Positions 40,741 to 56,149 of a stretch of 64,000 bases of DNA are shown here, piece by piece. Below the pieces are notes generated by a model, which saw only the letters and a list, made by a program, of their open reading frames with translations, ran no database searches and was not told the origin of the DNA. Origin of the DNA: Alphaproteobacteria bacterium (lineage in GTDB: Bacteria > Pseudomonadota > Alphaproteobacteria > SP197); assembly GCA_016869675.1 (NCBI GenBank), contig VGDP01000002.1:20001-84000 (forward strand), read 5' to 3'. Each line of letters begins with the position of its first letter. The stretch's first letter is position 1. A program made the position numbers and the translations under genes.

Positions 40741-42036
40741 ATGATCAAGGTGACTAGTGGTCTTGGCGCGGGCCTGACGCGGCGCGGCGCGCTGCGCGTG
40801 GGCGGTGCGTTGGCGGGGGCGACGGCCCTGGCGGGCGTGCCGGGCTATCGGGCGTGGGGCAGCGACGCGCCGATCCGCATCGGTCTGCAGGTACACCGCA
40901 CCGGCATCGGCGCGGCCTACGGGCGCTGGTACGAGAGCACCTCGAGCGCAGCGGTCGCGCACATCAACGCCAACGGCGGCATCGGTGGGCGCCCCATCGA
41001 GATGATCGTCGAGGACGACGCGACTGACCCCAAGCGCGGCGCCGAGGTGGTCGAGAAGTTCGCGTCCGAGCACAAGGTCGACGTGGTGTTCGGCACGCTG
41101 TTCAGCCACGTGGTGATCGGTTCTGCCCCGCGCGCGGGCGAACTGAAGATGCCGTACTTCGTCGTCTCCGAAGGCTATCACGTTGCGTCGGGCGCGCTGA
41201 ACCGCTACGTCTTCCAGCCGGGCATCACCGACGTGCGCCAGCAGGTGACGTCGATGGCGCCCTGGATCACCGGCAACCTCGGCAAGAAGATCGCCATGAT
41301 CTTCCCCGACTACGCGTTCGGCTACGACCACCGCGATTTCTTCAGCGCCGCCGCCGGCAAGCTGGGCGGCGAGATCACCACGTTGCTGGCGATCCCGCCG
41401 ACCGAGACCTCGTACACCAAGTTCTTCCCGCAGATCCCGGCGGGCACCGAGGTCATCTACCACGTCATGGTGGGGCCGGGCGTGCTGACCTTCGTCAAGG
41501 AGCTGGGCGAATTCTTCGGCGCCGGCGGACCCAAGCTGTTCGGCTTCATCGACAGCCTCGAGGCGGTCGACCTGGCGAGCCCGGGGCTCGAATACCTGGA
41601 GGGTTCGCACATCTGGGAGGCGATGCCGCGCTTCGCCGACGGCCAGCCGACCGAATCGGCGCTGGCCTACCGCGAGAAGGTGGGCGTCGACGCCAACGGC
41701 GCCTCGGTCGCCGATCCCAAGGATATCGCCACGTTCTCCCACATGTTCGGCTGCTGGGAGACGCTGCACGTGATCAAGGCGGCGGTCGAGGCGTCCGGCT
41801 ACCAGGGCGCCGACGACACGGCCAAGCTGATTGAGGCGGTCGAGGCGATGACCGAGTTCCCCGAGAGCCTGGACCACCCGCAGGGGCGCAAGACCTTCAA
41901 CGGCAAGCTGCACCAGTGCTTCGGCCAGCAGTTCATCTCGCAGGTCGAGGGCGGCAGGCTGAAGGTCGTGCACACGACCGCGATCGAGGACGGCCTCTAC
42001 GAGCCCGAGGCCGACTACACGACCCAGGCGCTCTGA
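40741..42036 (+). CDS. Branched-chain-type ABC transporter substrate-binding protein
   Basis: A 431-residue periplasmic type I binding protein (Peripla_BP_6). A twin-arginine-like signal LTRRGALRVGGALAGATALA precedes the mature part starting near APIRIGLQVHRTG. The ligand-fold motif NANGGIGGRPIEMIVEDDATDP is typical of LivJ/LivK. AGGGAGGG (40725-40732), 8 bp before ATG 40741, is a strong ribosome-binding site. It leads a five-gene importer operon. The ligand may be an amino acid, urea-like or amide compound; the adjacent dpaL suggests amino-acid-like substrates. Confidence 0.92.
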   Translation: MIKVTSGLGAGLTRRGALRVGGALAGATALAGVPGYRAWGSDAPIRIGLQVHRTGIGAAYGRWYESTSSAAVAHINANGGIGGRPIEMIVEDDATDPKRGAEVVEKFASEHKVDVVFGTLFSHVVIGSAPRAGELKMPYFVVSEGYHVASGALNRYVFQPGITDVRQQVTSMAPWITGNLGKKIAMIFPDYAFGYDHRDFFSAAAGKLGGEITTLLAIPPTETSYTKFFPQIPAGTEVIYHVMVGPGVLTFVKELGEFFGAGGPKLFGFIDSLEAVDLASPGLEYLEGSHIWEAMPRFADGQPTESALAYREKVGVDANGASVADPKDIATFSHMFGCWETLHVIKAAVEASGYQGADDTAKLIEAVEAMTEFPESLDHPQGRKTFNGKLHQCFGQQFISQVEGGRLKVVHTTAIEDGLYEPEADYTTQAL

Positions 42037-42103
42037 CCGACGACGGGCCGCCGGCCCGGGCCCCGCGTGGGGTCCGGCCGCGGCTCGCGGGCGCGACCCG
42101 GGC

Positions 42104-42985
42104 ATGGCGTTCGAATCCCACCTTCTCCTGGCCTTGCTGGAGGGCACGGTCGGCGCGTGCGTGCTGGCGCTGACCGCGCTGGGCCTGTCGCTGGTGTTCG
42201 GCGTCATGCGCATCGTCAACGTGGCGCACGGCGAGTTCTTCATGCTCGGCGCGGTGATCGCGTGGGCGGCGGCAACCCTGGTCGGCGGGCCGCCGGCGCT
42301 GAGTTTCGCGCTGGCGCTGGTGACGGCGCCGCTGGCGGTGGCGGCGATCGCGCTGGGCGTCGACCGGCTGATCCTGCGCCGCGTCGCCTACCAGCCGGAC
42401 GCCACCATCGTCGCCACCATCGGCCTAGTCTACGTGTTCCAGCAGGCGGTGCTGATGACGTTCGGACCCGAGGCGCGCGCGGTGGCGGCGCCGTTCCAGT
42501 GGCGCGTGACGTTTCCAGGCTTCGGCTATTCCGGCGTCAAGCTGGCGTTGGCGGGTGCCGCGCTGGTGCTGATCGCCGGCACCTGGCTGATGCTGACGCG
42601 CACACACATCGGGCTGGCCATGCGCGCGACCCAGATCGACCGCGAAACCGCCCAGGCCTTCGGCATCCCGGCGAGGCGCGTCTACGCGCTGGTGTTCGCA
42701 CTGGGCGCCGCGCTGGCGGCGGTGGCGGGCGTTCTCGTGGTGCCGGTGCAGCAGGCGCACTATCTGATGGGCGGCGATCCGCTGCTGTTGTCGTTCATCG
42801 TCGTCATCATCGGCGGCCTGGGCAGCCTGCGCGGCACCCTGGTGGCCGCCTTCGTCATCGGCATCAGCGACGGCGTGATCGCCGTGTTCTTCTCGCCGAC
42901 GCTGGCCAAGATCGCCGCGACGCTGCTGGTCGCCATGGTGCTGGTGGCGCGCCCCCAGGGCCTGTTCGGGCGGGCGCCATCATGA
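42104..42985 (+). CDS. Branched-chain-type ABC permease, LivH-like
   Basis: A 293-residue permease with about eight transmembrane helices. It has the LivH signature GLSLVFGVMRIVNVAHGEFFMLGA near the N-terminus and IDRETAQAFGIPARRVYALVFALG in the cytoplasmic coupling loop. Its 3' end overlaps the livM start (ATGA at 42982). It forms the membrane channel with LivM. Confidence 0.94.
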   Translation: MAFESHLLLALLEGTVGACVLALTALGLSLVFGVMRIVNVAHGEFFMLGAVIAWAAATLVGGPPALSFALALVTAPLAVAAIALGVDRLILRRVAYQPDATIVATIGLVYVFQQAVLMTFGPEARAVAAPFQWRVTFPGFGYSGVKLALAGAALVLIAGTWLMLTRTHIGLAMRATQIDRETAQAFGIPARRVYALVFALGAALAAVAGVLVVPVQQAHYLMGGDPLLLSFIVVIIGGLGSLRGTLVAAFVIGISDGVIAVFFSPTLAKIAATLLVAMVLVARPQGLFGRAPS

Positions 42986-43928
42986 CCGCGGCGCGGCGCG
43001 CGCTGCCGGCCCTGGTGCTGGCGGGCCTGTTCGCCCTGCAGTTCGTCCTGGGCGATTACGACCACACCAACATGGCGCGCATCCTGGTGCTGGCGTGCTT
43101 CGCCGTGGGCTACAACATCGCCTTCGGCATGACCGGGCTTCTGAGCCTGGGGCACGCCATGTTCTTCGCCGCCGGGCTCTACGGCGCAGGGTTCTCAGCG
43201 GAGCTGGGCGGCGTGGCACCGCCGGCCGCGCTGGCGGCGGGCACCGCGTGCGGCCTCGTCCTCGCGCTTGCCGTCGGCCTCGTCGCGCTGCGCACCAGCG
43301 GTGTCGCGTTCATGATTGTGACCCTGATGTTCGCCCAGGCGTGCTTCCTGACGATCCTGCACTTCAACGAACTGACGCGCGGCGACGAGGGCTTCGTCAT
43401 CGCCGAGACCGCGCGGCGCTTCGCGTTGGCCGGCGTGGTCCTCGACGCGGCCGACCCTACGGTCCGCTACAACGCGGCACTGGCGCTGTTCGCGCTGGCC
43501 TACGGCGCGTACCTGGCGCTGGCGCGCAGCCGCGTCGGCCGGGTCCTGGTCGGCATCCGCGAGAACGAGGACCGCGTGCGCATGCTGGGCTACGACCCCT
43601 ACCGCTACCGGCTGTTCGCCCTGACGCTTTCGGGCGCGCTGGCGGGCCTGGCGGGCGCGGCGTACGCCCTGCTGTTCGCCTACGTCGGCGCCACGTTCGC
43701 CACCACGCAGTACTCGATCTACCCGCTGCTGTGGGTGCTGCTGGGCGGTGCCGGCACGGCGTTGGGACCGCTGGTCGGCACCGGCGTTATGTTCGTCCTG
43801 GTCGACCGCCTGAGCGGCATCACGTCGAGCTACCTGATGCTGGTCGGCCTGGCGCTGATCCTTCTGGTCGTGCTGTTCCCCAAGGGCATCCTGGGCACGG
43901 TCGGCCAGCGCCGGGCGCGGAACCGGTC

Positions 43929-43932
<4 letters not shown>
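42982..43932 (+). CDS. Branched-chain-type ABC permease, LivM-like
   Basis: A 316-residue permease. Signatures are AVGYNIAFGMTGLLSLGHAMFF and the coupling loop GRVLVGIRENEDRVRMLGYD, where LivM contacts the ATPases. A C-terminal helix ends LILLVVLFPKGILG. The start overlaps livH and the stop overlaps the GTG of livG (GTGA at 43929), so the three are translationally coupled. Confidence 0.94.
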
Positions 43933-45346
<1,414 letters not shown>

Positions 45347-45352
45347 TGGGGT

Positions 45353-46048
45353 TCAGGCCGAGGCCGGCAGGGCGAAGGCGTGCTGCAGGACGTGCTGCTG
45401 CACGTCGCGCAGGTGCGCGTGCATGGCCTGGGCCGCCCGTTCGCCGTCGCGGGCGCCGATCGCCTGGGCGATCGCCACGTGATCGCCGGAATAGGCCGCC
45501 TGGCGCTTGAAGCAGCGGCCGTTCTCGGCCAGCCGCAGCCAACCCGCGTCCTCGCGCCGGAAAGCCACCGCGTCATAGACCGCGAGGAACAGCAGGTTGT
45601 GCGCGGCCTCGACCACGGCGCGATGGAACGCGGCGTCGGCCCGTTCGTAATCGTCGGCGGCGGCGGCTTCGCAGGTCTGGGCGGCCAGGCGCTGCAGCTT
45701 GCGGATGTCGCACGCGGTGGCGCGCATGGCGGCGAGGCGCGCGATCATCGGCTCGAAGGTCAGGCGCAGCTCGATGACCTCGGACGGGCTGGTGTGTTCG
45801 TCGATGCTCGCCAGCGTGGTGGGCGGCGTCGCGGTGACGTTGCGCACGAAGGTGCCGCGCCCCTGTTCGCGGCTGATGCGCCCTTCGCGTTCGAGCACGT
45901 CGAGCGCGCGGCGCAGCGACCGGCGGCCGACGCCGAGGTCGTCGGCCAGCGTGCGTTCGGGAGGCAGACGACCCGAATCCAGGTAGGCCCCGTCCTCGAC
46001 CAGTGCGCGCAGGCGCGCCACCGATTCCGTGAGACCCTGTGTCGCCAT
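45353..46048 (-). CDS. GntR-family transcriptional regulator, FadR subfamily
   Basis: A 231-residue regulator. The N-terminal winged helix-turn-helix is PPERTLADDLGVGRRSLRRA followed by REQGRGTFVRN. The C-terminal all-helical FCD effector domain (residues about 85-215) has metal-site residues in ERADAAFHRAVVEAAHN and SGDHVAIAQAIGARD. FadR-type regulators bind organic acids and usually control adjacent genes. It is divergent from the dioxygenase gene at 46323. Matching inverted half-sites ACCATT/AATGGT occur in the shared upstream region, so the right-hand catabolic cluster is its likely target. Confidence 0.92.
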   Translation of the reverse strand: MATQGLTESVARLRALVEDGAYLDSGRLPPERTLADDLGVGRRSLRRALDVLEREGRISREQGRGTFVRNVTATPPTTLASIDEHTSPSEVIELRLTFEPMIARLAAMRATACDIRKLQRLAAQTCEAAAADDYERADAAFHRAVVEAAHNLLFLAVYDAVAFRREDAGWLRLAENGRCFKRQAAYSGDHVAIAQAIGARDGERAAQAMHAHLRDVQQHVLQHAFALPASA

Positions 46049-46255: not shown

Positions 46256-46322
46256 CGAAAACCAGAAACGAGAACCGGCGCGGCGCCGCGCGATAGCCTG
46301 ACGCCAGGGGAGGATGCGGACC

Positions 46323-47471
46323 ATGACGACGCCGGCCAGCGCCGATGGCGCCAACCGACAGGCCGCGCTCGACCAACTCCACGCCGACGTGTTCGCCCAC
46401 AACATGGCGCCGTTCTGGGCCGTGGACGCGCAGCGCAACCACGACGAGGACCGCCAGGTCCAGGACACGAAGAAGGCAAGGCCGTTCGTCTGGACCTACG
46501 CGCGCGACATCGAGCCGCTGCTCCACCGTTCGGCCGAACTCATCACCATGGAATCGTCCGAACGGCGGTCGCTTATCCTGGTCAACCCGGGGCTCGCGCC
46601 CCGGCGCGCCACGGTCAGCACCATGTACACCGCCTACCGGCTGAACGATCCGAACGAGATCATGCCGCCGCACCGCCATTCGCCGAACGCCATCCGCTTC
46701 GGCCTGACGGGCACGCAGAACTTCACCGGCGTCGAGGGCGAGAACATCATCTTCGGGCCGGGCGACATGGTGCTGACGCCCCACGACACCTGGCATAACC
46801 ACGGCAACAAGGGCGACGAGCCCGCCGTCAATCTGTCGGTGCTGGACCTGCCGTTGATCGAGACGCTCAACGCGACGTATTTCGAACACGACTACCACGA
46901 GGTCGCGAAGGGCGAACGGATCAAGCGCCAGGCGCAGTCGGAACGCTTCCCGCCCGACTATTCCCAGCGCGTTTACGGCCAGGGCGGCTTGAGGCCCCGG
47001 TTCCTGTCGCACCGTCGCGGCACTGGCGCGGCCTCGCCCATGTACGTCTACCGCTGGGCCATGATGCGCGAACTGCTGGACCGCTTCCGCGACTGGGACG
47101 GCGACCCCTACGAGGGTCTGATGGTCGAGTACGTCGACCCGACCACCGGCGGGCCGGTGTTCCGCACCATCACCTTCTTTGCCCAGATGCTGCGCGCGGG
47201 CGAACGCACGCGGCCGCTGAAGCAGAACGCCAGTCTGCTGGTCGCGCCGTTCGAGGGTCGTGGGCATTCGATCATCGACGGCGAACGCCTGGACTGGGCG
47301 CCGTTCGACACGCTGGCGGTGCCGGGCAGCGCGTGGTGCGAGCATGTCAACGGCTCGGACCGCGACCCGGCGATCCTGTTCGTGGCCAGCGACGAGCCGA
47401 CGCTCAAGGCGCTGGCGCTCTACCAGAAGCACGGCCGCGACGCGGCGGGCGACACGGTCCGGCTGGCCTGA
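46323..47471 (+). CDS. Gentisate 1,2-dioxygenase-like bicupin
   Basis: A 382-residue double-cupin dioxygenase. The first cupin has the iron-binding histidines in MPPHRHSPNAIRFGLTG and the later His in TPHDTWHNHGN. The second cupin (about residue 270 on) is degenerate, as usual for this family. Gentisate 1,2-dioxygenase opens the ring of 2,5-dihydroxybenzoate to maleylpyruvate; homologues also act on salicylate or hydroxynaphthoate. A glutathione transferase gene 1.5 kb downstream could serve as maleylpyruvate isomerase. However, the pyridine-catabolism neighbours leave open a related ring substrate. ATG 46323 is preferred. Confidence 0.85.
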   Translation: MTTPASADGANRQAALDQLHADVFAHNMAPFWAVDAQRNHDEDRQVQDTKKARPFVWTYARDIEPLLHRSAELITMESSERRSLILVNPGLAPRRATVSTMYTAYRLNDPNEIMPPHRHSPNAIRFGLTGTQNFTGVEGENIIFGPGDMVLTPHDTWHNHGNKGDEPAVNLSVLDLPLIETLNATYFEHDYHEVAKGERIKRQAQSERFPPDYSQRVYGQGGLRPRFLSHRRGTGAASPMYVYRWAMMRELLDRFRDWDGDPYEGLMVEYVDPTTGGPVFRTITFFAQMLRAGERTRPLKQNASLLVAPFEGRGHSIIDGERLDWAPFDTLAVPGSAWCEHVNGSDRDPAILFVASDEPTLKALALYQKHGRDAAGDTVRLA

Positions 47472-47475
47472 ACCC

Positions 47476-48603
47476 ATGGCGTCGAGCCGGAACGCCAAGC
47501 GTCTCGCCTGGATCGACTGCCCGGGCGGCGGCCAGGTGTGGGTCGAGGGCACGACGCTGTTCGTCGGCCACATGCGCGCGCCGACGGGCACCTCGATCTA
47601 CGACGTGGCGGACCCGACGAAACCGACCCTGCTGGCGCGGATCGAGCTGCCGGCCGGCTGGCATTCGCACAAGGTGCGGGTCGCCGGCGACATCATGATC
47701 GTCAACCACGAGCGCCAGGGCGCCGACGCCAACCCGGCGTTCGGCGGCGGCCTGGGCATCTACGACGTCGCCGACCCGCACCGCCCGCGCGAGATCGCCA
47801 AGTGGCGCACGCAGGGCAAGGGCGTGCACCGGTACGACTTCGACGGCCGCTACGCCTACGTCTCGCCCACCGCCGAAGGCTATGTCGGCAACATCGTGAT
47901 GATCCTGGACCTGAAGGACCCGGCGCGGCCCGAGGAGGTTGGGCGCTGGTGGATCCCAGGCCAGTGGCAGGCCGGCGGCGAGGATTATCCGTGGCACGAC
48001 TGGACGCCGCCGCGCTGCCACCACCCTTTGCGCCAGGGCGACCGGCTTTACGTCAGCTACTGGCACCACGGCCTGGTCATCCTGGATATCGCCGACCTGG
48101 CGCGGCCCAAGGCGGTGGCGGCGGTCAACACCTCGCCGGTCTACCCGCACCCGACCCACACGTGCCTGCCGATGCCGGCGCCGCTGAAGGGCCGGCGCAT
48201 CATGGTGGTGGCCGACGAGGACGTGGCCAAGCTGTGGCCCGCCGCGCCGGCGTTCACCTGGATCTACGACATCACGAACGAGTCGCTGCCGACGCCGATC
48301 GCCACCTGGCAGGTCGCGGGCCTGGACCCCGACGGCGCGCCGCAGCCGCCCATGATGGGCTGCCACCAGCCGTCCGAGCGGTTCCAGGGCACGATCATCC
48401 CGTTCGCCTGGTTCGCCAAGGGCCTGCGCGTGCTGGACATCGCCGACCCGTTCGCGCCGCGCGAGGTGGCGTTCTACGAGCCCGACCCGCCGCCCGGCCA
48501 CCCGCTCGCCTCGTCCAACGACGTGACCATCGATCGCCGCGGCCTGATCTATCTGATCGACCGCCAGCGCGGCGTCGATATCATCGAAAGCTCCGTGATG
48601 TGA
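47476..48603 (+). CDS. LVIVD-repeat beta-propeller protein
   Basis: A 375-residue protein made of repeated blades with the LVIVD signature, for example TSIYDVADPTKPTLLARIEL, GLGIYDVADPHRPREIAKW, HHGLVILDIADLARPKAVA and GLRVLDIADPFAPREVAFYE. Several His and Cys residues (GWHSHKV, PRCHHPL, PHPTHTCLP, MMGCHQP) lie at comparable positions and could bind metal at the propeller centre. There is no clear signal peptide. Function is unknown; it is encoded between a dioxygenase and RidA, so a catabolic role is likely. It starts 4 bp after the upstream stop. Confidence 0.75.
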   Translation: MASSRNAKRLAWIDCPGGGQVWVEGTTLFVGHMRAPTGTSIYDVADPTKPTLLARIELPAGWHSHKVRVAGDIMIVNHERQGADANPAFGGGLGIYDVADPHRPREIAKWRTQGKGVHRYDFDGRYAYVSPTAEGYVGNIVMILDLKDPARPEEVGRWWIPGQWQAGGEDYPWHDWTPPRCHHPLRQGDRLYVSYWHHGLVILDIADLARPKAVAAVNTSPVYPHPTHTCLPMPAPLKGRRIMVVADEDVAKLWPAAPAFTWIYDITNESLPTPIATWQVAGLDPDGAPQPPMMGCHQPSERFQGTIIPFAWFAKGLRVLDIADPFAPREVAFYEPDPPPGHPLASSNDVTIDRRGLIYLIDRQRGVDIIESSVM

Positions 48604-48613
48604 GGACGCGACC

Positions 48614-49024
48614 ATGAGCACGACCGAGATCAAGCCGATCGGCAAGAGCAACCCGAACCTGCCGTTCCACCCGGCCGTGCGCGCGGGCGATTTCATCTTC
48701 GTCTCGGGCCAGGTGGCCAAGGACGAGAACGGCGCCATGTGCGTCGGCAACATCGAGGAGGAGACGCGCTGGACCATCGAGTCCATCCGCCGCATCCTCC
48801 GGCTCGAGGGCGCCGACCTGGCCGACGTGGTGCGGGTCTGCGTTTACCTGGAGGACACGCGCGACTTCGGTCGTTACAACAAGGTGTTCGCCGAGTACTT
48901 CCCGGACGGGCGACTGGCCCGCACCACTGTGGAAGCGCGCGCCGTGATCAACTGCAAGATCGAGATGGACGCGGTGGCGTACAAGCCACTGCCCCGCGGC
49001 TACGAAGAGGACGCGCGATCATGA
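48614..49024 (+). CDS. RidA (YjgF) family protein
   Basis: A 136-residue RidA-superfamily protein. Core motifs are AGDFIFVSGQVAKD, RILRLEGADLADVVRVCVYL and TTVEARAVINCKIEMDAVAY. The conserved Arg that binds the carboxylate of enamine/imine intermediates is in VEARAV. RidA proteins hydrolyse reactive enamines or imines; catabolic paralogues act on ring-opened amino-muconates or aminoacrylates. That would suit breakdown of a nitrogen heterocycle. Its stop overlaps the start of the GST gene (ATGA at 49021). Confidence 0.92.
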   Translation: MSTTEIKPIGKSNPNLPFHPAVRAGDFIFVSGQVAKDENGAMCVGNIEEETRWTIESIRRILRLEGADLADVVRVCVYLEDTRDFGRYNKVFAEYFPDGRLARTTVEARAVINCKIEMDAVAYKPLPRGYEEDARS

Positions 49025-49629
49025 TGCGACTGCTGGGCCGGGCGACCTCGGGCAACGTGCAGAAGGTGGTGTTCCTGCTCGAGGAGTTGGGCACACCTTA
49101 CGCGCGCGAGGATTACGGCCGCCAGTTCAACAACACGGCCGACGCCGCGTACCTGGCGCTGAACCCCAACGGCAAGGTGCCGACCCTGGTGGACGGTGCG
49201 ACGGTGGTGTGGGAATCCAACACGATCCTGCGCTATCTGGCGAACACGGCGGGTGCCGAAGGCGCCGTGCTCTACCCCGCCGACCCGGCGGCGCGCAGCA
49301 CGGTCGAGCGCTGGATGGACTGGCTGCTCGCCTCGCTCAACAACCCCTACATGGGCCTGTTCCGCGAGGCGAAGAAGCCGGCGGCCGAGCGCGCCGCCAC
49401 CTGGGCTGCGGACGCCAAGGACATGGCGACGCAGCTCGGCATCCTGGACGGCGCCATGGGCGGCCCGTGGATCGCCGGCGCGGCGTTTAGCCTGGCCGAC
49501 GTCGCGCTGGCGCCCATCGTGCACCGCTGCCTCGGTTTCCCCATCGAGCTGCCGGCGCTGGCCAACGTGCGCGCCTGGCACGGCCGCGTAGCCGCGCACC
49601 CGGCCTTCAAGACGGCGACCGCCGCATGA
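49021..49629 (+). CDS. Glutathione S-transferase family protein
   Basis: A 202-residue GST. The N-terminal thioredoxin fold has MMRLLGRATSGNVQKVVFLL with a candidate catalytic Ser, cis-Pro in GKVPTLVDG and the glutathione gamma-glutamyl site ESNTILRYLA. The C-terminal helical domain has FSLADVALAP. It could act as a maleylpyruvate isomerase after the upstream gentisate-type dioxygenase, or detoxify an intermediate. It is coupled to RidA by a 4-bp overlap. Confidence 0.88.
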   Translation: MMRLLGRATSGNVQKVVFLLEELGTPYAREDYGRQFNNTADAAYLALNPNGKVPTLVDGATVVWESNTILRYLANTAGAEGAVLYPADPAARSTVERWMDWLLASLNNPYMGLFREAKKPAAERAATWAADAKDMATQLGILDGAMGGPWIAGAAFSLADVALAPIVHRCLGFPIELPALANVRAWHGRVAAHPAFKTATAA

Positions 49630-49657
49630 CCGAACACGCACATCCGAGGGAGGAACG

Positions 49658-50572
49658 ATGACCAAGGCTGCCGTGATCGGCCTGGGCACCATGGGCCCGG
49701 GCATCTGCGCCACGCTGGCCCGCGCCGGCATGACCGTGACCGCATACGACGTCAGCGCCGACCAGCGCGCCAAGATGCCCGAGCTGGCCAAGCAGGCCGA
49801 CGGCGTGCTGGCGGCGTTGGGGGTCGCCGAGCGCACCAAGGCGCCCATCACCGTCGCCGACAGCCTGGCGGCGGCGTGCGCCGGCGCCGGCCTGGTGATC
49901 GAGACCGTGCCGGAGAAGCTGGACATCAAGCAGGCGGTGTTCAAGGAAATCGACGCCGCCGTCGCCACGACGTGCATCATCGCGTCGAACACCTCGGGCA
50001 TCCCGATCACCAAGCTGCAGGACGGAAATTTGGCCCCGGGCCGCGTGGTCGGCATGCACTGGTCGAACCCGGCCCACGTCATCCCGATGATCGAGGTGAT
50101 CGCCGGCAACCAAACCGACAAGGCGACGGTCACCTGGATGGTCGACACCATCAAGGGGCTGGGGCTGTTGCCCGTGGTGGTCGAGAAGGACGTGCCCGGC
50201 TTCGTCGAGAACCGCGTGCTCTACGCCATCATGCGCGAATGCGTCGATCTGGTGGAGAAGGGCGTGATCAGCGCCGAGGGCATGGACGCCTGCGTGTCGT
50301 GGGGCATCGGCTACAAGCTGTCGGTGATCGGCCCAATGGCGCTGCTGGACATGGCGGGGCTCGACATCTACCAAGCCGTCGGCAGCTATCTGAACAAGGA
50401 CCTGTGCAACCGGGCCGACGTGGCGTCCTACGTCACGGGGCGCACCGGCCAGAACAAGCTGGGCATGAAGACGGGCGGCGGCATCTACAGCTACACGCCC
50501 GAGCAGATCCCCCAGCTGCGCGCCAGCCGCGCCAAGAAGCTCGTCGCCGTCCGCAAGGCCCTGGAAAGCTAG
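49658..50572 (+). CDS. 3-hydroxyacyl-CoA-dehydrogenase-family protein, FHMPC dehydrogenase-like
   Basis: A 304-residue NAD-dependent dehydrogenase. The Rossmann loop is VIGLGTMGPGICATLARAG. Key family segments are VIETVPEKLDIKQAVF, IASNTSGIPITKLQ, the active-site GMHWSNPAHVIPMIEVI, and VPGFVENRVLYAIMRECVDL with the C-terminal dimer domain. From memory, the GMHWSNP motif and the CVSWGIGYK...GPMALLDMAGLDIY region match 5-formyl-3-hydroxy-2-methylpyridine-4-carboxylate dehydrogenase of Mesorhizobium loti much better than CoA-ester enzymes, which usually have HFFNP. That enzyme works in vitamin B6 degradation, like the 4-pyridoxolactonase encoded 4.8 kb downstream. Confidence 0.8.
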   Translation: MTKAAVIGLGTMGPGICATLARAGMTVTAYDVSADQRAKMPELAKQADGVLAALGVAERTKAPITVADSLAAACAGAGLVIETVPEKLDIKQAVFKEIDAAVATTCIIASNTSGIPITKLQDGNLAPGRVVGMHWSNPAHVIPMIEVIAGNQTDKATVTWMVDTIKGLGLLPVVVEKDVPGFVENRVLYAIMRECVDLVEKGVISAEGMDACVSWGIGYKLSVIGPMALLDMAGLDIYQAVGSYLNKDLCNRADVASYVTGRTGQNKLGMKTGGGIYSYTPEQIPQLRASRAKKLVAVRKALES

Positions 50573-50645
50573 CGGACGGTTCGTGAGACCCGCCGCAGGG
50601 CGGTAGTTGGGAAGCAGGGTTCAACGACCACAGGGGAGACACGAG

Positions 50646-51695
50646 ATGTACGGTTCGACGAAGAGGACGCTGCTCGGCTTCGCCGCGGCGTCGGCACTCG
50701 TCGGCGCCATGGCCGCGTCGGCCAGCGCCGTGGAGGTGAAGAAGCTGGCCGTGCTGGTGCCCGAGCAGGGCACCGATTTCGGCTGGAACCAGCAGGGCGT
50801 CGACGCCGCCCGGGCCGTGGCCGAGAAGTACGGCCTGGAGTTCCTGCCGGCCGAGGGTCTGGGCTACGGCGACGTGCGCCCGACGCTGCGCGAGTTGGCT
50901 GGCGAGGGTGCCAGCCTGATGATCGCCCACGCCAGCGGCTACAACACCGCGGCGCCCGAGATCGCGGCGGAGACCGGCGTGCCGGTGGCCATCGTCGACG
51001 CGCCCGACGCGCTGAAGGCCGGGCTGGTCGCCGACTACACGCTGAGCGGCCACGAAGGCGCCTATCTGGCCGGCGTGCTGGCCGCGACCATGACGCGCAC
51101 CGGCACGCTCGGCATCGTCACCTCGGGCGAGCCGCCGAGCTGGAACTCGCAGTCGGCCGCGTTCGCCCAAGGGGCGAAGGCAACCAAGGCGGACATCAAG
51201 CTCCTGTACGCTGTGATCGGCCCTGCGGCCTACGCCGACGCGGCCGGTGGCCGGCGCGTCACCGAAACGGTGATCGCGGCGGGCGCCGACATCGTGTTCG
51301 GCCAGGGCGACGGTTCGTCCTTCGGCATGATCGAGGCGGTCGAGACCACCAAGGCATCCGACGGCGGCCAGGCGTGGTTCATCGACGTGATCGGCGACAA
51401 GAGCTCAATCGACAAGGGCTTCCTGCTGTCGTCGGTGCTGTGGAATATGGTGCCGGTCTACTCGGCCATGGTCGAGGACCTGCAGAACGACGCCTTCGGC
51501 ACGCGCGGCTATTCCATCGGCCTGGCCGATGATTCCGTGCAACTGCTGAAGACCAGCCACATCCCCGACGACGTGTGGGCGACCGTCATGGGCGTGCGCG
51601 ACCAGATCGTCGGCGGCTCGCTCAAGCTCGAGCCTGTGTGGGACGCCGAGGCGGTCCGGGCGCTGATGAACTCGGTCGAGATCGGCGAGGAGTAA
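50646..51695 (+). CDS. BMP-family ABC transporter substrate-binding protein
   Basis: A 349-residue periplasmic protein of the BMP/PnrA family. The signal peptide runs to about ASASAVEVKK. The mature protein starts KLAVLVPEQGTDFGWNQQG, with GGRRVTETVIAAGADIVFGQ and WFIDVIGDKSSIDKGFLLSS lining the ligand cleft. Known BMP proteins bind nucleosides, or in one case autoinducer- or riboflavin-like ligands. It heads a complete importer (ATPase and two permeases follow). The neighbouring enzymes suggest that the ligand here is a pyridine such as a B6 vitamer or 4-pyridoxate; this is inference. Confidence 0.92.
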   Translation: MYGSTKRTLLGFAAASALVGAMAASASAVEVKKLAVLVPEQGTDFGWNQQGVDAARAVAEKYGLEFLPAEGLGYGDVRPTLRELAGEGASLMIAHASGYNTAAPEIAAETGVPVAIVDAPDALKAGLVADYTLSGHEGAYLAGVLAATMTRTGTLGIVTSGEPPSWNSQSAAFAQGAKATKADIKLLYAVIGPAAYADAAGGRRVTETVIAAGADIVFGQGDGSSFGMIEAVETTKASDGGQAWFIDVIGDKSSIDKGFLLSSVLWNMVPVYSAMVEDLQNDAFGTRGYSIGLADDSVQLLKTSHIPDDVWATVMGVRDQIVGGSLKLEPVWDAEAVRALMNSVEIGEE

Positions 51696-51747
51696 GACGG
51701 GTAGCGCGGGCGGGGGCCACGCGCCCCCGCCCCAACCCCGGCGCGCC

Positions 51748-53339
<1,592 letters not shown>

Positions 53340-53343
<4 letters not shown>

Positions 53344-54377
53344 GCGCGCGCGAGGCGATCGCCGGCGCGCTGCGCGTCGCGCTGCCCATCGCGCTGGCGC
53401 TGACGGTCGGCGGCGCCGTGCTGCTGGCGCTGGGCAAGGACCCGATCGACTACTACGTCTTCGTCGTCGAGCGTGGGCTGCTGAGCTGGGCCGGATTCCA
53501 GGAATCGCTCACCCGCTCGGCGCCGCTGCTGCTGATCGCGGCGGGACTGATCGTCGCGTTCCGCGCCGGCATCTGGAATCTGGGCGTGGACGGCCAGTTC
53601 CTGCTGGCCGCCGTGATCGCCGCGGCGCTGGCGCCTGAACTGATCGCGTTCCTGCCCGGCTTGCTGACCCTGCTGATCGGCTTCGTCGTGGCGGCGCTGG
53701 TCGGCGCCGCGTGGTCGCTGGTGCCGGCGCTGCTGAAGGCGCGCATCGGCGTCAACGAGATCGTGACGTCCCTGATGATGTCGTTCCTCGGCATTTCGCT
53801 GGCCAACGTGCTGATCAAGATCCCGTTCAACGACCCCGCGACCACGGTGCCGCAGACCCGCACGCTGGCGGTCGAGGACCGCCTGCCGCGCCTGTTCGAC
53901 ACCACCGTCCACGCCGGCATCGTGATCGCCGTGGCGGCGGTCGTGCTGGTGCACCTGATGATGACGCGCACGGCCTTCGGCCTGCGTCTGCAGATGGTCG
54001 GCGCCAACCCGCGCGCGGCGCAACACGCCGGGCTCGACGTCGGCCGCCTGACCGTGGCGACCTTCGCGCTGTCGGCCGGGCTGGCTGGCATGGGCGGCGC
54101 GGCGGACGCACTGGGCGTGCTGGGCACCATCCGCGCCGATTGGGATCCGGGCTACGGCCTGCTGGTGGTGCCGCTGGTGTTCCTGGCGCGCTTTCACGGC
54201 ATTGCAGTGATCGGCTTCACGCTGTTCTTCGCGGTGCTGATGATCGGTGGCGAGAGCGCGGCGCGGCGGTTGGGCGTACCCAACTTCTTCGTCCTCGTGC
54301 TGGTCGGTCTGCTGCTGCTGTTCCTGGCGGTGGTCGAGTACCTGGACCAAATGCGCCGGCGCCGGCGCGTGGCCTGA
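53340..54377 (+). CDS. ABC permease 1 of the BMP importer
   Basis: A 345-residue permease (BPD_transp_2 family) with about ten hydrophobic helices. The signature AGLIVAFRAGIWNLGVDGQF and ARIGVNEIVTSLMMSFLGISL are typical of YufP/NupP-type nucleoside permeases. The coupling segment FGLRLQMVGANPRAAQHAGL is present. Translationally coupled to the ATPase; the second permease begins 3 bp downstream. Confidence 0.93.
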
Positions 54378-54380
54378 ACC

Positions 54381-55316
54381 ATGGACGCCATCCTCAGCCC
54401 CGCCTTCGTCACCGCGCTGCTGCTGGGCGCCGTGACGGCGGGCACGCCGCTGCTGCTGGCCGGCCTGGGCGAACAGATCGCCGAGAAGGCCGGCGTGCTG
54501 AACATCGGCATCGAGGGTATGATGCTGATGGGCGCCTATGTCGGCTTCGTCGCGGCGTTCACCACCGGATCGTTCTGGATGGGTTTCGCCGGCGGCGCAG
54601 CGGGCGGCGTCGCGGTCGCCGTGCTGATGTCGATCCTGTGCGTGCGTCTGGGCATGAACCAGATCGTCATCGGCATCGCGTTGACCCTGGGCGCCGAGGG
54701 ACTGACCGCGCTGCTGCATCATTTCCAGTTCAGCCGGTCGTACCCCCGCCTGCCGGACGTGCCAGTGCTCGAGATCCCTGGCCTCGCCGCGATCCCCGTG
54801 ATCGGCCCGGTGCTGTTCGCCCACCACCCGCTGGTCTACCTGGCGGTCGGCCTGGTCGTCCTGCTGGGCTGGCTGTTCCGGCGCACCAACATGGGCCTCA
54901 ACCTGGAGGCGGCGGGCCAGAAGCCTGGCGCGCTGGACGCGGCCGGTGTCGGTGTGATCGCGACGCGCACCTGGGCGGTGCTGACGACCGGCGCGCTGGC
55001 CGGCATCGGCGGCGCCTTCATGGCGACCGTCGGCGCCGGGCTGTTCGTGCCGTTCATGACCGGCGGCGCCGGTTTCATCGGCATCGTGCTGGCCATGCTG
55101 GCGCGCGGCCGCCCGCTGTGGGTGATGCTGGGCGCGCTGCTGTTCGGCATCAGCCTGGCGCTGACCACCGCGTTCCAGGTCGCCGGATTCAACATCCCGA
55201 CCGACGTGGTCCACATGCTGCCTTTCGCCATGGTGATCGTGGTGCTGGTGCTGTTCGCCCGGCACAGCGTGCTGCCCCCGGCGCTGGGGCTACCCTACGT
55301 GCGGAGCGATCGTTAG
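54381..55316 (+). CDS. ABC permease 2 of the BMP importer
   Basis: A 311-residue permease of the YufQ/NupQ type. It has GLGEQIAEKAGVLNIGIEGM and GMNQIVIGIALTLGAEGLTA, then coupling segment NLEAAGQKPGALDAAGVGV. It pairs with the longer permease to form the channel. The 4-pyridoxolactonase-like gene starts 26 bp downstream behind a purine-rich AGGAGG-type site, suggesting one operon. Confidence 0.93.
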   Translation: MDAILSPAFVTALLLGAVTAGTPLLLAGLGEQIAEKAGVLNIGIEGMMLMGAYVGFVAAFTTGSFWMGFAGGAAGGVAVAVLMSILCVRLGMNQIVIGIALTLGAEGLTALLHHFQFSRSYPRLPDVPVLEIPGLAAIPVIGPVLFAHHPLVYLAVGLVVLLGWLFRRTNMGLNLEAAGQKPGALDAAGVGVIATRTWAVLTTGALAGIGGAFMATVGAGLFVPFMTGGAGFIGIVLAMLARGRPLWVMLGALLFGISLALTTAFQVAGFNIPTDVVHMLPFAMVIVVLVLFARHSVLPPALGLPYVRSDR

Positions 55317-55342
55317 GATTTCGGGAACGAGGAGGAGCGGCC

Positions 55343-56149
55343 ATGGCCGACACGAAGGTCTACCTGCTGGACGGCGGCACCCTGGTGATCGACGGCTATC
55401 ACGTGTTTTGGAACCGGGGCCCCGGCGGCGAGGTGCGCTTCCCGTGCTACGCGGTGCTGATCGAGCACAAGGATGGCCGCTACATCTTCGACACCGGCTA
55501 CGACCACGCCCACGTTCAGCGCGTGCTGCCCTTCGAGAAACCGATCCAGACGCGCGAGCAGACCATCCCCGGCGCGCTGGCCACGCTGGGGCTGAAGCCC
55601 CAGGACATCGACTATGTCATCAACTCGCACTACCACTTCGATCATTGCGGCGGGAACAAGCATTTGACGAAGGCGTGCACGCTCTGCCACGCCAAGGAGC
55701 TGGAGGCGAGCGGCAACTGCCAGCCCTTCGAGCACCTGGGCTATTCGGACCTGACGTTCCACCCCGAGCTCGCGCGCAAGCAGAAGAACCCGTTGCCGCC
55801 CGACCCGGCCATGGACATCTACACGCCGCGCTTCGAGACCCTGAAGGGCGACCAGGAGATCGCCAAGGGCCTGTGGCTGTTCGAGACCCCGGGCCACACC
55901 GCCGGGCACTACAGCCTGATGGTTGAGCTGAAGGGCCGGCGGCCCATGCTGTTCACGGCGGACGCCTGCTACAGCAAGAAGAACATGGACCTGATGTGCA
56001 TCTCGTCGTTCCACCTGGACCCGGTGGCGAGCGTCAAGTCGCTGCACTGCCTGAAGGAGCTGGCGGCCAAGCACGACGCCGAGTTGTTTTACTCGCACGA
56101 CGCCGAGAGCTTCGCGACGTACCAGAAGGGCCCGGCGTACTACGCGTAG
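55343..56149 (+). CDS. 4-Pyridoxolactonase-like metallo-beta-lactamase-fold hydrolase
   Basis: A 268-residue zinc hydrolase of the AHL-lactonase family. The dinuclear zinc motif is NSHYHFDHCGGN, later ligands are in ETPGHTAGHYSL, LFTADACYS and LFYSHDAESF. Its opening (TKVYLLDGGTLVIDGYHVFW then NRGPGGEVRFP) and its length equal those I recall for 4-pyridoxolactonase of Mesorhizobium loti, which opens 4-pyridoxolactone to 4-pyridoxate in vitamin B6 degradation. It is therefore more likely a pyridoxolactonase than a quorum-quenching enzyme. GAGGAGG-like sequence before ATG 55343 supports the start. It ends next to a foldback repeat. Confidence 0.85.
   Translation: MADTKVYLLDGGTLVIDGYHVFWNRGPGGEVRFPCYAVLIEHKDGRYIFDTGYDHAHVQRVLPFEKPIQTREQTIPGALATLGLKPQDIDYVINSHYHFDHCGGNKHLTKACTLCHAKELEASGNCQPFEHLGYSDLTFHPELARKQKNPLPPDPAMDIYTPRFETLKGDQEIAKGLWLFETPGHTAGHYSLMVELKGRRPMLFTADACYSKKNMDLMCISSFHLDPVASVKSLHCLKELAAKHDAELFYSHDAESFATYQKGPAYYA

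Follow-up and report, generated by a model that had tools for sequence, protein, structure and literature searches.

The window, which is the whole 64-kb stretch of DNA that was analyzed, contains a run of ten genes (46323-56149), all on the + strand (Table 1). The identical order of all ten genes recurs in many Rhodospirillales genomes, and therefore this arrangement is not due to chance. The bicupin, LVIVD, RidA, glutathione S-transferase (GST), FHMPC dehydrogenase, importer, and lactonase genes named in a first-pass annotation of this DNA were all present, and the coordinates and strand agreed. Not mentioned in that annotation was a divergent gene for an FCD-type GntR protein, which is probably the local regulator of the cassette. 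A gene of this type also adjoins the bicupin gene elsewhere, for example at loci L002, L007, L008, L010, and L021. An alternative in-frame start at 46314 is possible for the bicupin gene.

Table 1. Genes of the cassette and the divergent regulator gene, with positions in the window
Gene product	Position	Strand	Basis for designation
FCD-type GntR regulator (probable)	45353-46048	-	Pfam FCD and GntR; divergent from cassette
Bicupin dioxygenase, gentisate/salicylate family (proposed HMPDC 3,4-dioxygenase)	46323-47471	+	PDB matches 2d40, 3bu7, 2phd; Fe-His and Arg83/Arg127/His162 equivalents kept
LVIVD-repeat beta-propeller	47476-48603	+	Pfam PF08309; best fold match 5hrm
RidA-type imine/enamine hydrolase	48614-49024	+	PF01042; R103 equivalent to catalytic Arg105
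Glutathione S-transferase	49021-49629	+	Pfam GST_N/GST_C; PDB GSTs without assigned role, e.g., 4iel
FHMPC 5-dehydrogenase (makes HMPDC)	49658-50572	+	NF042925, 486 bits (cut-off 500); 4om8
BMP-type substrate-binding protein, putative B6 importer	50646-51695	+	NF047927, 482 bits (cut-off 400)
Importer ATPase, two ABC domains	51748-53343	+	NF047930, 776 bits (cut-off 670)
Importer permease 2	53340-54377	+	NF047929, 527 bits (cut-off 400)
Importer permease 1	54381-55316	+	NF047928, 527 bits (cut-off 465)
4-Pyridoxolactonase	55343-56149	+	NF047925, 472 bits (cut-off 325); 3aj3

Four enzymes of vitamin B6 degradation are encoded in the source genome, in line with the earlier suggestion of a B6-degradation locus. 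The designations of a 4-pyridoxolactonase-like and an FHMPC-dehydrogenase-like protein held up. The lactonase exceeded the NF047925 cut-off and scored 363 bits against the solved 4-pyridoxolactonase of M. loti (3aj3). The FHMPC dehydrogenase scored slightly under the NF042925 cut-off; its sole PDB match at E ≤ 1e-40 was the solved enzyme of M. loti (4om8), with 358 bits. The other two enzymes are a pyridoxal 4-dehydrogenase of the SDR type (G000:C2:94717-95457 in contig numbering; NF047923, 412 bits against a cut-off of 325; 293 bits against PDB 3ndr) and a pyridoxamine-pyruvate transaminase (G000:C2:95488-96669; NF046070, 631 bits against a cut-off of 600). Their genes, which the first-pass annotation also omitted, are on the same contig, 18.5 kb downstream of the ten-gene run and beyond the window. 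Thus, the B6 cluster is split, and loss of the dehydrogenase and the transaminase is ruled out.

The BMP-type ABC importer was correctly described as complete; the substrate-binding protein, the ATPase, and both permeases were all identified. Its specificity had been called unrecognized. However, all four subunits exceeded the cut-offs of NCBIfam equivalog models that already name these proteins putative B6 ABC transporter (NF047927 to NF047930), and therefore that description does not stand. No difference between the importer here and the transporter of these models was found, and the importer is a putative carrier of B6 vitamers. Literature searches found no binding data for importers of the NF047927-NF047930 type. 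Actinobacillus is reported to have a PLP-binding ABC importer (PMC8427247), which likewise relies on a binding protein to take up a B6 vitamer.

The locus has the importer, the transaminase, pyridoxal 4-dehydrogenase, the lactonase, and FHMPC dehydrogenase in common with B6 degradation pathway I of Mesorhizobium loti MAFF303099 and Pseudomonas MA-1, and its neighborhood matches that of the pathway I genes in Mesorhizobium. In contrast to pathway I, the cluster of the source genome is split and has no clear ortholog of the GMC of the 4-pyridoxate dehydrogenase type, and the locus has the bicupin, the LVIVD propeller, RidA, and the GST but no HMPDC decarboxylase, MHPC oxygenase (MHPCO), or AAMS hydrolase. 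Pathway II of Pseudomonas IA and Arthrobacter Cr-7 involves isopyridoxal and 5-pyridoxate enzymes; the lactonase here belongs to the 4-pyridoxolactonase family. A search of the source genome found no match to the decarboxylase at 1e-15 or to the flavin-dependent MHPC oxygenase or AAMS hydrolase at 1e-20, so that all three are absent at the thresholds used. The first-pass remark that other pathway enzymes were not visible is thus true genome-wide for the decarboxylase and MHPC oxygenase but not for pyridoxal dehydrogenase. That annotation had offered a variant route or a split cluster as explanations, and both apply: the ring-opening trio is replaced, and two upper-pathway genes are located elsewhere on the contig.

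The bicupin module and the MHPCO module occupy the same site in Mesorhizobium. M. ciceri WSM1271 and M. loti DSM 2626 both have the gene order GMC, bicupin, LVIVD, RidA, GST, and FHMPC dehydrogenase. In Mesorhizobium sp. 65-26 the genes run from AAMS hydrolase through MHPCO, two small genes, HMPDC decarboxylase, and GMC to FHMPC dehydrogenase, and identities were checked against PDB 3alj, 3kxp, and 2z7b. Of the 51 genomes that contained the locus, 38 had the bicupin, 12 had MHPCO, none had both, and one had neither. This mutual exclusion was significant when kinship was ignored (Fisher, 8e-11). Corrected for kinship, there were six independent pairs on the best tree and one on well-supported branches, which is weak support. 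Orthologs of HMPDC decarboxylase (at least 77% identity) were found only in the 12 MHPCO genomes, and AAMS hydrolase (at least 76% identity) was found in 11 of those 12 and in no other of the 51. A second set of 385 genomes was drawn independently of the lactonase, and in this set the bicupin and 4-pyridoxolactonase were confined to the same five genomes (P = 1.1e-9, own genome excluded). The FHMPC dehydrogenase tree grouped by ring-cleavage module, with the MHPCO genomes forming one clade with a support of 100; the lactonase tree did not follow the module (six changes). RidA and GST genes were not found adjoining the bicupin gene in loci L021, L022, and L028, and thus these two proteins are not strictly required.

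The bicupin belongs to the same family as the salicylate and gentisate 1,2-dioxygenases (2phd, 2d40, and 3bu7), with about 32 to 40% identity to them. In 19 cassette proteins the equivalents of the Fe ligands His119, His121, and His160 (H117, H119, and H158) and of Arg83, Arg127, and His162 (R81, R125, and H160) are invariant. However, R106, N170, and S172 replace Gln108, Trp172, and Asp174 in all 19 of these proteins. Gln108, Trp172, and Asp174 are conserved across all gentisate dioxygenases (PMC11264262), and the 5-hydroxyl group of gentisate is recognized by Asp174 and Trp104 (PMC10306065). Thus, the bicupin retains the catalytic residues of salicylate dioxygenase without the Asp that recognizes gentisate. 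Its score against the gentisate 1,2-dioxygenase model TIGR02272 (208.7 bits) was far below the cut-off of 442.1, and it was also far below the cut-off of the 5-aminosalicylate dioxygenase family. The family score, the residues, and the co-occurrence rule out an ordinary gentisate dioxygenase. The extra invariant Arg at the Gln108 position would suit a second carboxylate; its position was judged by alignment only because the AlphaFold model of the bicupin was poor (pLDDT 56). Plasmid homologs of the bicupin all had less than 60% identity to it; of two whose surroundings were inspected, one belonged to a cluster for aromatic degradation that also encodes a separate gentisate dioxygenase, and the other was beside a flavin monooxygenase.

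The first-pass annotation had considered the bicupin a possible handler of ring-opened enamine products. It is probably the ring-opening enzyme itself, in place of the decarboxylase, MHPCO, and AAMS hydrolase, and we consider it likely that the cluster degrades B6 through a substituted ring-opening branch in which the bicupin cuts HMPDC at C3-C4. In such a pathway the importer would take up B6 vitamers, and pyridoxine or pyridoxamine would be converted to pyridoxal by a GMC oxidase and the transaminase, as in Mesorhizobium. Pyridoxal 4-dehydrogenase would then yield 4-pyridoxolactone, the lactonase would yield 4-pyridoxate, and conversion via FHMPC to HMPDC would end with FHMPC dehydrogenase. 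The Fe(II) of the bicupin would hold the 3-hydroxy/4-carboxylate pair of HMPDC as salicylate dioxygenase holds salicylate, and cleavage between C3-OH and C4-COOH would replace decarboxylation and flavin-dependent opening of the MHPC ring.

The predicted cleavage product is an N-vinyl imine of pyruvate, an N-substituted 2-iminopropanoate of the substrate class that RidA hydrolyzes. RidA is known to hydrolyze 2-iminopropanoate, for which Arg105 is needed (PMC4433059). The equivalent residue, R103, was invariant in 11 sequences, and the protein scored under the TIGR00004 cut-off (76.6 versus 106.25 bits). RidA might release pyruvate and amino-methylene oxaloacetate, with breakdown completed by the GST, a possible isomerase of the ring-opened product, and the LVIVD propeller, which we propose is a metal-dependent hydrolase acting on it. 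The propeller has 11 invariant His residues in 19 sequences, and its AlphaFold model (pLDDT 82, pTM 0.87) best matched the fold of the phosphotriesterase 5hrm (E = 2e-16, TM 0.72). The genes next to plasmid homologs of the propeller, which encode transporters of the tripartite tricarboxylate or sugar type or are unrelated, provide no firm functional clue. A fuller account, which we hold only tentatively, is that gentisate-type cleavage of HMPDC at C3-C4 to a pyruvate imine for RidA is the older and more widespread route in these Alphaproteobacteria, and that the MHPCO branch replaced it at this site in Mesorhizobium only later.

No GMC ortholog of the 4-pyridoxate dehydrogenase type was found in the source genome at 1e-160, which contains several GMC homologs with 40 to 47% identity to that type (best, 47%), and nine further bicupin genomes likewise had no clear ortholog. 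Therefore, the substrate of the bicupin could differ. 4-Pyridoxate and FHMPC also carry the 3-OH/4-COOH pair, and if the bicupin cut one of these within the same replacement, the FHMPC dehydrogenase-like enzyme might oxidize a ring-opened or altered intermediate, which would accord with its score just under the NCBI cut-off and with its branches being longer in bicupin than in MHPCO genomes. However, 28 of the 38 bicupin genomes retain the GMC ortholog, several of them directly beside the bicupin gene, the FHMPC dehydrogenase is kept and clearly similar to 4om8, and the invariant extra Arg would suit the second carboxylate. Cleavage of 4-pyridoxate or FHMPC thus appears unlikely.

Less probable still is that another flavoenzyme encoded elsewhere in the genome opens the ring and that the bicupin, RidA, the GST, and the propeller act only downstream. 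RidA, GSTs, and propellers are usual downstream enzymes, and MHPCO-like flavoenzymes with 38 to 49% identity occur in four bicupin genomes, one copy being interrupted, but the source genome had no MHPCO-like match at 1e-20. Furthermore, the bicupin family itself opens rings, its catalytic residues are intact here, and the module is placed exactly at the site of the ring-opening module in related strains. The importer models are themselves labeled putative, and the B6 role is predicted here from genes, so the B6 names could be carry-over annotation in a locus that breaks down another hydroxypyridine or an aromatic acid. The presence of all four B6-specific enzymes and the synteny with the Mesorhizobium B6 cluster make this very improbable.

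Of the catabolic pathways for cofactors, B6 breakdown, for which two routes are recognized, has been described as the best understood (PMC3538738). Our literature searches, which missed most subscription journals, found no description of a bicupin-type ring-opening branch. If HMPDC cleavage by the bicupin is correct, it would be an undescribed additional ring-opening route for B6 that is widespread among certain bacteria of soil and water, and many Mesorhizobium and Rhodospirillales strains, some of them named M. loti, would open the ring without the textbook enzymes. It would also provide a function for a clade of dioxygenases annotated as "cupin domain-containing" and a place in a defined pathway for RidA and the LVIVD propeller. 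Two sets of closely related strains that differ in one module permit a clean test.

The vitamin B6 locus is a real and conserved variant of the known B6 degradation pathway, with a ring-opening branch, probably centered on a bicupin dioxygenase, that is apparently undescribed. A literature search of incomplete coverage did not find a description of this branch, and because of that coverage its novelty is to be read as "not found" rather than "proven new."

Ten adjacent genes encode the bicupin, an LVIVD propeller, RidA, a glutathione S-transferase (GST), FHMPC dehydrogenase, a BMP binding protein, an ABC ATPase, two permeases, and 4-pyridoxolactonase. The lactonase exceeded the curated cutoff of the NCBIfam model named 4-pyridoxolactonase, and all four importer proteins exceeded those of models named putative B6 ABC transporter. 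FHMPC dehydrogenase scored 14 bits below its NCBIfam cutoff; its sole PDB match at an E value of ≤1e-40 was the solved Mesorhizobium loti enzyme (4om8). These matches bear out the gene content proposed in the first-pass annotation. However, the importer, there considered of unrecognized specificity, belongs to families for which NCBI has already proposed B6 as the putative substrate. Immediately upstream of the divergent GntR regulator is a complete ABC importer of the branched-chain-amino-acid type, which may or may not be part of the B6 locus.

Coordinates of the B6 locus and of other features
Feature	Location	Position	Strand	Remark
Branched-chain-amino-acid-type ABC importer	window	40741-45346		
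FCD-type GntR regulator	window	45353-46048		divergent from ten-gene run
Ten-gene run	window	46323-56149	+	
Pyridoxal 4-dehydrogenase, pyridoxamine-pyruvate transaminase, GMC oxidase	own genome, C2	94717-98289		18.5 kb downstream of lactonase
PF06684 and PEBP-like proteins	L092	4991-6071	-	inside MHPC-oxygenase module
B6 cluster with neither MHPC oxygenase nor bicupin	L031	2096-9941		
TonB-dependent receptor	L015	6455-8779		
Second transporter	L057	1993-4682		
Second transporter	L016	2325-5100		

The first-pass annotation had suggested a variant route or a split cluster, and both apply. In the draft genome (3.49 Mb, given as 100% complete; the window is C2:20001-84000), three further pathway genes were recovered, including pyridoxal 4-dehydrogenase. 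Their relative order matches that in relatives, in which they directly follow the lactonase. Here the intervening 18.5 kb is filled with unrelated transport and amine-metabolism genes, and the cluster is therefore split. HMPDC decarboxylase (1e-15), MHPC oxygenase (1e-20), and AAMS hydrolase (1e-20) had no match in this genome.

A lactonase-based scan with one genome per species returned 80 loci, and the ten-gene order is conserved in many Rhodospirillales. Mesorhizobium has one cluster in two versions. Version a (e.g., Mesorhizobium sp. 65-26, L092) comprises AAMS hydrolase, MHPC oxygenase, two small genes, HMPDC decarboxylase, GMC, and FHMPC dehydrogenase; its hydrolase, oxygenase, and decarboxylase match M. 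loti enzymes of solved structure (3kxp, 3alj, and 2z7b). Version b (M. ciceri WSM1271 and M. loti DSM 2626; L090 and L091) comprises GMC, bicupin, LVIVD, RidA, GST, and FHMPC dehydrogenase. Importer, lactonase, transaminase, and pyridoxal dehydrogenase follow in both. By gene content, one ring-opening module is swapped for another at a single site. We know of no role in the published B6 pathway for the "amino acid synthesis" PF06684 protein or the PEBP-like protein encoded within the MHPC-oxygenase module of L092. Pseudaminobacter salicylatoxidans DSM 6986 (L054), a strain of the species noted for its salicylate 1,2-dioxygenase, has the bicupin version.

Among 51 genomes with the locus, chosen by lactonase and including the own genome, 38 had a bicupin ortholog (at least 64% identity) and 12 an MHPC oxygenase ortholog (at least 93% identity; one a fragment); none had both, and one had neither. 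HMPDC decarboxylase orthologs were confined to those 12 genomes, 11 of which had AAMS hydrolase. Because this panel had been selected by lactonase, 385 evenly drawn genomes of the class were added. Bicupin and lactonase occurred in exactly the same five (Fisher P = 1.1e-9, own genome excluded), in one of which (G339) they lie on separate contigs. The two versions fall cleanly apart in the tree of FHMPC dehydrogenase, with version a as one clade inside b in a midpoint-rooted drawing, whereas the lactonase tree intermixes them, requiring six changes, which suggests that FHMPC dehydrogenase and the ring-opening module move together. Same-site exchange is the stronger argument for replacement because, after kinship correction, few independent pairs back the mutual exclusion.

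To our knowledge, the 5-OH of gentisate is absent from every B6 intermediate. Asp174 of gentisate dioxygenases contributes to recognition of this hydroxyl (PMC10306065), and Gln108, Trp172, and Asp174 are reported conserved in all of them (PMC11264262). In contrast, all 19 cassette bicupins examined carry Arg, Asn, and Ser at these positions; they retain all three His ligands of Fe and the counterparts of Arg83, Arg127, and His162. In HMPDC, the 3-OH adjoins the 4-COOH, and a second carboxylate is at C5, which the extra Arg could bind. Judging from the enzyme families, C3-C4 cleavage of HMPDC by the bicupin would place the C3 carboxylate on C2(CH3)=N, an N-substituted 2-iminopropanoate. RidA proteins hydrolyze 2-iminopropanoate to pyruvate (PMC4433059), and the cassette RidA has the required Arg. 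Such cleavage would explain the absence of HMPDC decarboxylase because salicylate/gentisate-type cleavage requires the 4-carboxylate. A 4-pyridoxate-dehydrogenase-type GMC is present in 28 of the 38 bicupin genomes; the own genome lacks a clear ortholog and has several GMC homologs at 40 to 47% identity. Either another GMC acts as 4-pyridoxate dehydrogenase there, or the bicupin substrate differs in this lineage.

LVIVD gave a confident propeller model, with phosphotriesterase as the closest fold, and has eleven invariant His; our guess is a metal-dependent hydrolase. It may be nearer to essential than RidA and GST because it is kept in L021, L022, and L028, where RidA or GST was not found.

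Loci L031 to L034, with neither MHPC oxygenase nor bicupin, possibly hold a third ring-opening module: beside FHMPC dehydrogenase and lactonase are an M29-fold metalloprotein, a small cupin, a class II aldolase-like protein, a three-subunit molybdenum hydroxylase, and a luciferase-like oxidoreductase. The L031 record (GC, 49%) is titled Bifidobacterium breve; its B6 genes are closest to those of Acidimicrobiia L033 (about 70 to 80% identity), and the MAG label looks doubtful. In L012, L015, and L017 (MAGs labeled Gammaproteobacteria or Proteobacteria), the gene for a TonB-dependent receptor immediately precedes those for the BMP protein and lactonase, which suggests B6 uptake across the outer membrane. 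In Rhizobiales and some Rhodospirillales, a second transporter within the cluster perhaps carries 4-pyridoxate; a single position is occupied by an NMT1/THI5-like ABC importer in some loci and by a TRAP transporter in others.
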